This document shows, piece after piece, positions 43,301-64,000 of a DNA stretch of 64,000 nt. Made by a program: the position numbers and the translations under genes. The notes under the pieces are model-generated. The model saw only the letters and a program-made list of their open reading frames with translations. It had not been told where the DNA came from and ran no database searches. This DNA is from Taxawa tesnikishii (nom. ined.) (lineage: Eukaryota > Ascomycota > Dothideomycetes > Dothideales), in the NCBI GenBank assembly GCA_030247885.1, contig JAPDRO010000017.1:434001-498000 (forward strand), written 5' to 3'. How positions within the stretch are numbered: the first letter of the stretch is position 1; every line of letters begins with the position of its first letter.

Positions 43301-46300
43301 GGAGCATGCCGAGCTTTACAGGCTGTCCGGCCTGATCAGCCTGAAGCTCTCCAACAACATGCTGACCTCATTACCCAAGTATTTTGGTGCCTACCACTGT
43401 CTCCGCAGCCTGAACATTGCCTCGAATTCGCTTAGCGAAATCCCTGATTTCCTGTGTGAGCTCAAGACCCTTGTCGATCTGGATGTCAGCTTCAACGCCA
43501 TTTCCAACATTCCCAACGTCAGCAAATTGGTGAATCTGGAGAGACTGTTCGCTACAAACAACAAGTTGTCTGGACCACTACCGGAATCGTTCAAGGCACT
43601 GGTAAACCTGAATCAGATTGATGTCCGTTTCAACCAGATTGACAACATGGACATCACTTGTCAGTTGCCAAACTTGGAACATCTCTTGATCGGCCACAAC
43701 TCCATCTCCGCATTTGAGGGTTCCTTCTCCCGGATGAAAGTTCTGTACCTCAACCACAACCCGGTCACAAGATTTGGCCTGAACGCGCTGGTGCCTACTT
43801 TATCCGTGCTCAACATTGCATCGGCAAAACTGGCTCAGCTGCCCGATGACCTGTTCGTCAAGCTGTCCGGAATCACGAAGCTTGTACTCGACAAAAACCA
43901 CTTCGTCTCGTTGTCGCCGCTCATCGGTAGGTTGACCAGGCTTGAGCACCTGAGCATTGCCCGGAACGAACTTGCCAGCCTTCCTGCAGAGGTCGGCAGA
44001 CTTACAGAGTTGAAATACCTGGATGTAAGAGAGAACAATCTCAACCGACTGCCTTCCGAACTCTGGTTTGCAAGAAGACTGGAGACACTCAATGTCGCCT
44101 CCAACGTCCTAGCAGAATTTCCTAAACCTGGCATGCCATTGCCCGCCCTACCTACCGATGCTGCTCCAGCTACACCTGCGCAGACTCCGGGTGGAACTTA
44201 CGCCAGTCCGGACTTCGACGAGCTTGGGAAACTGGAAGCATTCCAATTGCGCCGTCCGAGCCAGGCATCCGGTGGGCCTAACATGCTCAACCAAGTGGGC
44301 TCCCCGGCACCGTTGGTAACAGAAACTCTTCGGTAGCATCTTCTGCTTACGGTGGGCGCAATCACTCATTAGCACGATCGTCCACGGAAACGAGTCTTGG
44401 TACTATCACGCCCGTTTCGCGTAAGGATTCGACATTGTCTGGCAGGCTAGCCACCACCTTTGCCTCGTCTCTTCGCCATCTCGTTCTCGCTGACAATCGT
44501 CTTTCTGACGATGTATTCGATGAGCTTGTTCTGCTTCCCGAGCTTAGAATGCTCAACCTCTCGTGGAACGACCTGTATGATCTACCTCCTAGAACGATCA
44601 AACGGTGGCAACACCTCACTGAGTTGTACCTGTCCGGAAACGAGATCACATCACTTCCCGCAGAAGATCTCGAAGATGGCTCATCGCTCCGGGTTCTGCA
44701 CCTCAACAGTAACAAGTTTCAAGTTCTGCCAGCTGAGTTATGCAAGGTTAACAAGCTTCAAACGCTGGATGTTGGCAGCAACGCCTTGAAGTATAATGTG
44801 TCCAACTGGCCGTACGATTGGAACTGGAACTGGAATCATCAATTGAGGTATCTCAACATGTCTGGCAACAAGCGACTCGAGATTAAGCCCGATGCAAACG
44901 CAAATCGCCGTGGGGAGGGCAAAGATCTTACCGATTTCACATCGTTGGCAAACCTCCGCATTCTGGGTCTCATGGATGTTACACTCACGATTCCTTCTGT
45001 ACCCGATGAGAGCCCTGACAGACGTGTGCGTACAGCCGGATCGGTAATTGGTACCAGCATACCCTACGGCATGGCGGATACTCTCGGCCGCTATGACCAT
45101 CTTTCCACCATAGACATGGTCATTCCTCAGTTTAGGGGACATGAGGATCAGACCTTGATTGGCATGTTCGATGGCCAGGCCCTGTCATCCGGCGGAAGCA
45201 GAGTAGCCAAGTTCTTGCACGAAAAGTTCAAGAGTTACTTCACCGAGGAGATGGAAAAGCTAAGGTCTGGAGAAACGCCAGCCGACGCGTTGCGACGTGC
45301 TTATTTGGGTTTGAACAAGGAGCTCTCTACCGTCGCGACACAAGCCATTGAGTCTCGAGAGCAAGCGAGCACCGCAGTTGTGCATAGGGGTAGCATCTCC
45401 GGTCCCGAACTTGCCGAAGAAGATCTTAGCTCCGGGGCTGTGGCTACAGTGCTCTATCTTCAGGGCATGGAACTTTATGTGTCCAACGTTGGAGATGCTC
45501 AAGCGCTGCTCATCGGTTCTGAGGGCGGCCACAGGGTGATCACTCAAAAACACGATCCTGCCGATGCCGGGGAACGCCAACGGATCAAAGAGGCCGGAGG
45601 CTTCGTTTCGCGACAGGGAAAGCTTAACGATGTCCTCGAAGTGTCGCGAGCCTTCGGATACGTTCAAATGTCACCATGTGTCATCGCTGCGCCGCACGTG
45701 GTTCAAATGACAATCAAGGAGTCGGATGAACTTATCCTCATAGCCTCACGCGAGCTCTGGGATTACCTGACACCGGGATTTGCTGTAGATGTCGCACGCT
45801 CGGAACGTGGCGATCTGATGCGTGCTGCGCAAAAGCTGCGCGATCTCGCAATCGCTTTCGGTGCCAATGGAAAGATCATGGTCCAGATCATCGGCGTCAG
45901 CGATCTGCGCAAGCGAGAACGGGCAAGATTCAGGACACACAGCATGAGCATGGGGCCGACTGGCTCGCCCGATGACTACTTTACTACTGCCAGACGCGCC
46001 AAACGTGGCCGCGACAATGTGGGCGATTCGAAACTGGCCAGGCTGGACCAGGAGGTCGATGCGCCAGAGGGAGAAGTCAGCTTGGTATTTACTGATATCA
46101 AGAACAGTACCATGCTCTGGGAAACGTATCCGATCGCTATGCGTAGTGCCATCAAGATGCACAACGAGGTCATGCGACGACACCTTCGCATCATTGGCGG
46201 TTACGAAGTTAAGACAGAAGGTGATGCCTTCATGGTCGCTTTCTCAACTGTCACCAGTGCCCTGCTCTGGTGCTTTACCATCAAAGTGCCCTTCTTGAGG

Positions 46301-47285
46301 TTCAATGGCCCCAAGAGATCCTCTCTTCTGTGCACGGACAGGAAGTCACTGATGCGGATGGTAATGTCATTTTCCGCGGTCTCTCCGTCCGTATGGGCAT
46401 TCATTGGGGTCGTCCGGTGTGTGAGCTTGATCCTGTCACGAAGCGTATGGACTATTTCGGCCCCATGGTCAACCGTGCCGCCCGTGTGTCCTCGGTCGCA
46501 GATGGTGGCCAGATCACAGTATCGGCCGACTTCATTGCCGAGATCCAACGTCTACTGGAAACACACATCGAGACGGACCGCTCTGGCTCTACGGGAAGCG
46601 AAGACACGATCGGGGACGACATGATCAGCGCAGCCATCCGTCGCGAACTACGCAGTCTCAGTTCCCAAGGCTTCGAGGTTAAGGACCTGGGCCAGCGCAA
46701 CCTGAAGGGACTGGAGAACCCGGAGTATATCTACCTCATGTACCCACACTCGCTTGCTAGTCGTTTGGTCGTCCAGCAACAGCGCGCAGAGGCCGACGCG
46801 GCCGGCGCGAACGGAGGAACGCAAGCAACCAAGTCGAAGAATAGCCATCTTACTATTGATGTGGATAATGTGTGGGGTCTGTGGAACGTCAGTTTGAGAC
46901 TGGAAATGCTCTGTTCCACTCTCGAATGTCCCGAGTCGATGGAACTCAAGGCGCCCGAGACCGCGCTGTTAGAACGCATGAAGCAGAACGGTGGTGAGAT
47001 TACGGATCGGTTCTTGATCAACTTTGTCGAACATCAAATCTCAAGGATTGAGGTATGGCTTCCGCTCCTGGTACTTCCGTTCTCTGTAAGCATTGTTCTA
47101 ACCCGCTTTCCTACCCACAGACTTGTATAACGGCGCTCACGCTCAGAAACATGATCTTCCCATTCAAGCCTGGCTTTCTCAAGAATTCCTGCCCGATGGC
47201 GGACATTCTGGGCGAGATCTCGAGCCAATTGAATGAACTGAAGATGATCAAAGAGCAAGCGGATTTTGACATGGCGCCGTCATAG
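40343..47285 (+). CDS. CYR1: Adenylate cyclase, fungal leucine-rich-repeat type
   Basis: Makes cAMP; in fungi it is driven by Ras and G-alpha and controls growth, sporulation and virulence through PKA. Proposed exons 40343-40488, 40804-41532, 41743-47052 and 47121-47285. With four bases restored the total is 6354 nt (2117 aa), within the family range. Domains in order: Ser/Pro-rich N-terminus; Ras-association domain (FMRVFRADSTFAVISAG ... YLCRFTFLPGK, about 42690-43000); more than fifteen leucine-rich repeats (43040-44900); a PP2C-like domain (MFDGQALSSGGSRVA, from about 45090); and the class III catalytic domain (VSLVFTDIKNSTMLWE, then GIHWGRPV and DYFGPMVNRAARVSS). The frame slips near 41302-41304, 41806-41808, 44302-44305 and 46282-46285, always one base short. 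The first two introns are long for this window, 315 and 210 nt. Confidence 0.93.
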
Positions 47286-63337: not shown

Positions 63338-64000
63338 ATGCTCAGGAGAGTCCTTGCCACTGTGCCAGCCCAGGCCAGCAGAGCCCTCACGGCCGCCAGC
63401 AGGCCATCCTTCACACCGTCTATCCGCGCCGTGCCAGCAGTTTTCAATGCCGGCAGCAGGAGGAGCTACCACGAGAAAGATAAGTTTCCTCATGACGGGC
63501 GACGCTTTTGCGCTGTACGGCATGCACGGCCAGCGCACCGCAAGCCGTATCCATACCTTCGCCACAGAACGCTCAGCTAACACTCGCAGCACTGCTGGAC
63601 CACTACAACCGCCCCGTAACGTCGGAAGCATGAACAAAAATGACACCGATGTTGGCACCGGTCTTGTAGGCGCACCAGCCTGCGGAGACGTCATGAAGCT
63701 GCAGATCAAGGTCGACCCCAAGGACAACACGATTAGCGATGTCAAGTTCAAGACTTTTGGCTGTGGTAGCGCGATTGCCAGCTCCAGCTACCTGACCGAG
63801 TTGGTCCGCGGTATGACACTTGAGCAGGCGGGAAGAATTAAGAACACCGAGATTGCGAAGGAGTTGTGCTTGCCGCCCGTCAAGCGTAAGTTGACGGTTT
63901 AACTCTGATAGCAGAGCGTCTTTGGGGGATACGGCTGCTGACACAAATGCGTACAGTGCACTGCTCTATGCTTGCAGAGGATGCGATCAAGTCCGCCATC
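63338..64000 (+). CDS. ISU1: Iron-sulfur cluster assembly scaffold ISU1 (partial, 3' end outside)
   Basis: Mitochondrial scaffold on which Nfs1 and frataxin build 2Fe-2S clusters; essential in most eukaryotes. Proposed exons 63338-63479, 63593-63885 and 63957 onward past the window end. The N-terminus MLRRVLATVPAQASRALTAA is a mitochondrial presequence. The mature part starts YHEK-VLDHYNRPRNVGSMNK and has GTGLVGAPACGDVMKLQI (first cluster Cys), KTFGCGSAIASSSYLTELV (second Cys) and NTEIAKELCLPPVK, joined to LHCSMLAEDAIKSAI (third Cys). The first intron appears to be AT-AC (see separate entry). The frame slips at CCCC 63612-63615 in NRPRNVG, one base short. Avoiding both by the donor GTTTCC would replace the conserved VLDHYN with nonsense (TAGPLQP). 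Confidence 0.93.
63480..63592 (+). other. Probable AT-AC intron in ISU1
   Basis: A 113-nt intron starting ATAAGTTTCC and ending CGCAGCAC, with a branch-site-like GCTAAC about 15 nt before the end. Splicing G|ATAAGT...CAC|TG makes the codon GTG and gives YHEK-V-LDHY, the exact conserved sequence. The alternative AG two bases earlier would give Ala-Leu in place of Val and insert a residue. The ATAAGT start resembles a major-spliceosome donor with G changed to A rather than the minor-spliceosome ATATCC. Confidence 0.65.

Follow-up and report, generated by a model that had tools for sequence, protein, structure and literature searches.

The ISU1 gene at the window edge

The 64,000-nt stretch of DNA analysed here (the window) ends within the gene of the iron-sulfur scaffold protein ISU1, which lies on the forward strand. 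Exon 1 (63338..63479) was delimited by translation. It runs from the ATG at 63338 to ...SRRSYHEK plus the first base of the following V codon, and likely encodes a mitochondrial presequence and the start of the scaffold domain. Its YHEK aligned to YHPK in PDB 5t0v, which we take to be yeast Isu1. The putative intron 1 (63480..63592) is 113 nt long and reads AT...AC (ATAAGT ... CTAAC ... CAGCAC). Exon 2 (63593..63885) encodes the VLDHYNRP block in one frame (frame a) and then RNVGSM...ELCLPPVK in another (frame b). Intron 2 (63886..63956; 71 nt) is an ordinary GT-AG intron (GTAAGT...TACAG). Exon 3 (63957..64000) encodes LHCSMLAEDAIKSA... and continues beyond the window edge.

The identity of the gene was examined with domain and structure searches. 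Exon 2 matched NifU_N at 123.2 bits, above the curated cut-off, and the best PDB match of this exon alone was 5t0v (130.2 bits). At exon 3, the C-terminal part of NifU_N matched with 18.5 bits, just under the curated cut-off of 22. When the block was appended to exon 1, neither the AT-AC reading nor the AT-AG reading discussed below had a match in PDB at E values up to 1, and the two readings are not separated by this comparison. The NifU_N search of the 29.4 Mb genome, in which two candidates were scored, gave a single match and no second ISU1 copy, and the window gene appears to be the only ISU1 of the genome. This scaffold gene is thought to be essential. Compared with ISU1/IscU scaffold proteins, the predicted protein has no unusual traits apart from a frame break in exon 2. 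No Rfam family reached its gathering score in the window.

The junction of exon 1 and exon 2

The first-pass annotation had proposed an intron that joins 63479 to 63593 and has AT and AC at its ends. All letters concerned were confirmed: G at 63479, the 5′ splice site ATAAGT at 63480..63485, the branch-site-like CTAAC at 63577..63581, CAG at 63587..63589, the 3′ splice site CAC at 63590..63592, and TG from 63593. We then listed the pairs with GT-AG, GC-AG, AT-AC or AT-AG ends whose donor lay at 63400-63544, whose exon 2 started no later than 63611 and whose intron measured at least 40 nt. The frame of the block stayed open in 71 of the listed pairs, and only 63480-63592 gave YHEK-VLDHYNR. In-frame GT-AG and GC-AG pairs retained the downstream LDHYNR, but they dropped YHEK or interposed residues. 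The proposed junction was therefore upheld as the sole one among the pairs tried that yields YHEK-VLDHY.

As assembled, the sequence has the features of a U2-type AT-AC intron. AT and AC stand at the ends of a junction forced by the exons, the donor is of U2 type (G at +5, GTAAGT-like except at +1), and the branch motif is of the major type. ATAAGT matches GTAAGT at five of six positions, with +1 as the only difference, and a random 6-mer matches this well or better with p = 0.0046. The CTAAC lies within the GCTAAC that had been described as of major-spliceosome type, and that description held. Its A at 63580, the candidate branch point, precedes the AC end by 12 nt and the CAG end by 9 nt. 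A single stop was found within intron 1 in the frame of exon 1, at 63578. The coding-potential model, which is weak here, scored intron 1 at -15.5, -5.5 and -0.5 in the three frames and exon 1 at 0.0 at best.

To examine the spacing from Y to HY and for the run-length comparison, 160 homologues were used, namely the 80 highest-ranking loci among the matches listed in viral contigs and the 80 highest-ranking among those listed in bacterial genomes, with ISU1 exon 2 as the query. The homologue loci with names were bacterial, and no fungal locus was recognised among them. The AT-AC junction keeps the Y-to-HY spacing of the homologues, which is the same in 159 out of 160 (the usual residues in 157, others in 2). 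The same spacing is seen in PDB 5t0v, YHPKVIEHYTHPRNVG. None of the 159 readable homologues was one residue longer in this interval, and the 160th (L147) is itself out of frame. In the public record of this locus, from Ottowia beijingensis, the N-terminus of IscU is out of frame through an apparent frameshift.

A frame break in exon 2 and the quality of the assembly

The first-pass annotation held up for the junction, the donor and the branch-like motif, but it overlooked a frame break about 20 bases from the junction. RNVGSMNK... is read in frame b, one base off the frame a of VLDHYNRP, and the two frames meet at a run of four C (63612..63615). Because of this one-base break, the AT-AC product as assembled is truncated: it reads ...YHEKVLDHYNRPVTSEA, with an early stop in exon 2, and ends with ...NRPVTSEA. 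We regard the break as a probable assembly error, caused by homopolymer shortening and not part of the biology, since long homopolymers are in short supply and similar breaks occur in other conserved genes.

The shortage was measured in 264 kb of the genome. C/G runs of length five were found 121 times, of six once and of seven twice. Simulations built from the same 264 kb sequence predicted about 36 (order 2) or 33 (order 3) C/G runs of at least six, whereas 3 were observed; order 4, for which the already shortened runs served as training data, predicted about 11. For A/T runs of at least six, 19 were observed versus about 57 (order 2), 45 (order 3) and 23 (order 4). The long-run shortage and the one-base breaks at runs in conserved genes are those of a homopolymer-shortened assembly.

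A frame-switch scan of the 264 kb gave eight candidates, all of which had in-frame GT-AG pairs. The score of a pair was its number of donor matches, raised by 2 where a branch motif was present. At one switch (C9 relative 109672), an ordinary intron with a score of 7 accounts for the change of frame. At three of the eight, the best pair scored only 4 and the protein continued across the switch; these were in an adenylate cyclase, a DBP2-like helicase and an AP endonuclease. In the adenylate cyclase (ORFs 44435-46624 and 46270-47130), the frame switches in the middle of the domain, near 46283-46297, without a good intron. Guanylate_cyc matched on both sides of the break, with the upstream match (14.9 bits) under the cut-off. 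A one-base assembly error is probable there, and the lost base is placed approximately. The two halves of the DBP2-like helicase match consecutive parts of Dbp2 in PDB 8ark (268-343 and 357-422), so there is no room for an intron. For the AP endonuclease, the upstream half was identified by Pfam, and the downstream half by eye from its likeness to Apn1. Elsewhere on C9, a frame change at C9:525556 (C9 relative 91556) affects a protein resembling, by eye, a RasGEF N-terminal domain; it may come from either a short intron or a lost base.

Protein kinases were also searched for breaks. Twenty regions were fetched, and five split matches were examined, of which two were ordinary introns and three were one-base breaks (L185, C7:260763-260777; L186, C14:362503-362519; L187, C4:427742-427757). 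The three lie at runs of four identical bases (A, G or C), as placed by eye in the DNA, and they suggest that homopolymer shortening is genome-wide. Together with the C run of ISU1, these are the breaks seen at runs in the DNA. On contig C2, several kinase matches formed pairs or triplets with similar scores, and in-frame stops were shared by some of them (C2:413883, 810272 and 878577, as well as C2:446460 and 965342). A transposase-like frame was recognised by eye near C2:225305, and this contig may be rich in recent duplicates.

Frames broken at homopolymers are described for nanopore-only fungal assemblies in PMC7500977. The likeness to the present assembly is partial, since the errors left after polishing are given there as too long more often than too short.

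Could the AT and AC ends be sequencing errors?

Homopolymer shortening leaves no single base of the region beyond doubt. A true donor GTAAGT could have been misread, with the intron ending at the CAG at 63589, which adds a residue, or at an AG miscalled at 63592. The shortage of long C/G runs, even against the order-4 simulation, and the one-base breaks in other conserved genes and in exon 2 itself make such an error conceivable. So do the frame breaks reported in PMC7500977 and the tables of PMC8011154, according to which nanopore consensus keeps some mismatches. Against this, two substitutions are needed, and they would have to fall at positions described in PMC8283771 as compensating each other. 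Otherwise, one substitution is needed together with a residue insertion found in 0 of 159 homologues. The frame breaks placed so far are single-base losses, and no substitution error happened to be noticed. A check for misreading of AAG|GTAAGT on both strands of the 264 kb found AAGGTAAGT once and AAGATAAGT twice, counts too low to weigh either way. Because two substitutions are needed, the AT-AC ends would be less easily an error than the frame break, yet they rest on the same doubtful sequence. We consider an error unlikely but a serious contender; this estimate is rough, and the error rates behind it are borrowed from other assemblies.

Other readings of the intron ends

If the A at +1 is real, the intron might end at the CAG (63480-63589, AT-AG), giving YHEK-A-LLDHY. 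This CAG is a normal acceptor 9 nt past the candidate branch A, and its use keeps the frame. The AG, 3 nt upstream of the AC end, would insert one residue into the spacing common to 159 of the 160 homologues, and a residue at this point is present in none of the 159 that can be read. In addition, the terminal G-G of yeast introns is exchangeable for A-C only, as reported in PMC8283771. An AT-AG intron is thus improbable.

A reading free of any error splices GTTTCC (63484) to GCAG (63589) and takes the frame difference in exon 2 as real, which gives YHEKDNTAGPLQPPRNVGSM. It has GT-AG ends and an uninterrupted frame as assembled, and its product matched 5t0v at 183.2 bits, with a two-residue gap in the block. 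This pair had been named as the best GT-AG alternative and as one that destroys the conserved block, and indeed DNTAGPLQP stands where the block should be. The H-Y block, whose spacing is constant in 159 of 160 homologues as well as in two relatives from PDB, 5t0v and 8tvt, is replaced, and its loss would hit the only ISU1 found in the genome. The donor is weak, and the frame difference must be real despite the long-run shortage. We regard this splice as very improbable.

Spliceosomal RNAs in the genome

Rfam models were used to search the 29.4 Mb genome for spliceosomal RNAs. U11 (RF00548), U12 (RF00007), U4atac (RF00618) and U6atac (RF00619) had no match. U2 (RF00004) had five matches and U6 (RF00026) had three, each of the latter covering model positions 1-66 of 105. 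None of the six models matched in 14 control genomes, which are prokaryotes as far as they are named; for this reason, absence of the minor snRNAs from the genome is likely and not proven. The first-pass view that filamentous ascomycetes generally lack a minor spliceosome agrees with these results.

The U12-type donor and branch consensus sequences are ATATCCTT and TTCCTTAAC. Intron 1 departs from both, with ATAAGTTT and GCTAAC. A minor-spliceosome (U12-type) intron would share the AT-AC ends, and minor-spliceosome RNA genes are reported for one fungus, Cutaneotrichosporon oleaginosum (PMC7072748), so that absence from fungi is not universal, but the U2-type ATAAGT and CTAAC, the lack of any minor snRNA match in 29.4 Mb in which U2 and U6 do match, and a large survey reporting minor introns as completely absent from Dikarya (PMC10639083) make this reading hardly credible.

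A probable U2-type AT-AC intron in ISU1

We conclude that intron 1 of ISU1 is probably a U2-type ("type II") AT-AC intron of 113 nt, judging from the assembled sequence. The earlier reading of the intron is in this way partly supported. That the AT-AC intron is genuine seems somewhat better than an even bet, and this is a soft estimate.

The mechanism can be outlined from published yeast work. ATAAGT would be recognised by U1 and U6 from its bases downstream of +1, in the same way as GTAAGT, and U2 would bind CTAAC. In the second step, the A at +1 would pair with the C at -1, replacing the usual G-G pair. Through this A-C pairing, the spliceosome would skip the CAG at 63587-63589 and join at CAC|TG (63590-63592), and YHEK-VLDHY would be restored. 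We infer both the splicing at the AT-AC ends and the identity of the acting snRNAs. On this outline, there is about an even chance that the only ISU1 found here, in a genome with no detectable minor spliceosome, carries a natural counterpart of the A-C double mutant of yeast, where A at +1 causes the CAG to be ignored and the CAC to be used.

If this is true, the choice between the correct ISU1 and a form one residue longer depends only on the last base of the intron. A real intron would be a clean natural test of the terminal-base rule, in which a CAG and a CAC three bases further on compete after an A at +1; which of the two must win can be read from the protein sequence. If the ends are an error, gene models and non-canonical splice sites taken from the assembly need polishing first.

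Such introns did not show up as a class: on both strands of the 264 kb, ATAAGT followed by CTRAC and then YAC occurred 3 times, and with these motifs CTAAGT (3 times) was as frequent and TTAAGT (5 times) more so.

Comparison with known AT-AC introns

The first-pass annotation had called an AT-AC intron rare for a filamentous ascomycete. The rarity stands, as AT-AC introns are given as 0.019% of annotated fungal introns (PMC7072748). The surprise is smaller than claimed, because AT-AC introns have already been reported in filamentous ascomycetes. In Trichoderma longibrachiatum, AT-AC accounted for 69 of 14305 junctions in RNA-seq data (PMC4324775). In Fusarium graminearum, also by RNA-seq, AT-AC is named within the 0.31% "other" of 2604 introns, and non-canonical sites of seven genes, given without their end pairs, were confirmed by Sanger sequencing (PMC3577648). 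PMC6176087 describes minor-spliceosome components as unidentified in its fungi, in which AT-AC junctions nonetheless made up 0.09-5.19%. The Fusarium and Trichoderma introns have the same ends as intron 1 of ISU1 and likewise come from filamentous ascomycetes; theirs were recognised from transcripts, whereas that of ISU1 was recognised from protein conservation alone. Among the matches listed in the literature search, none described an AT-AC intron in a gene for an iron-sulfur scaffold. The ISU1 case would add an important gene to the known ones, on a doubtful sequence base.

The type II AT-AC introns of sodium-channel genes also have AT...AC ends and G at +5 (PMC2831892). They belong to another gene and another kingdom, and in the view of that paper's authors they derive from U12-type introns. 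For intron 1 of ISU1, descent from a GT-AG intron by changes at +1 and -1 would be simpler.

Another counterpart is a yeast mutant. Parker and Siliciano reportedly obtained, in 1993, a compensatory double mutant in S. cerevisiae, whose intron carries A at +1 together with C at -1. In the account of PMC8283771, A-C is the sole working replacement for the terminal G-G pair of S. cerevisiae introns, and the pair in that double mutant is the same as in intron 1 of ISU1. The yeast double mutant was made in the laboratory, whereas intron 1 of ISU1, if real, is a natural sequence.
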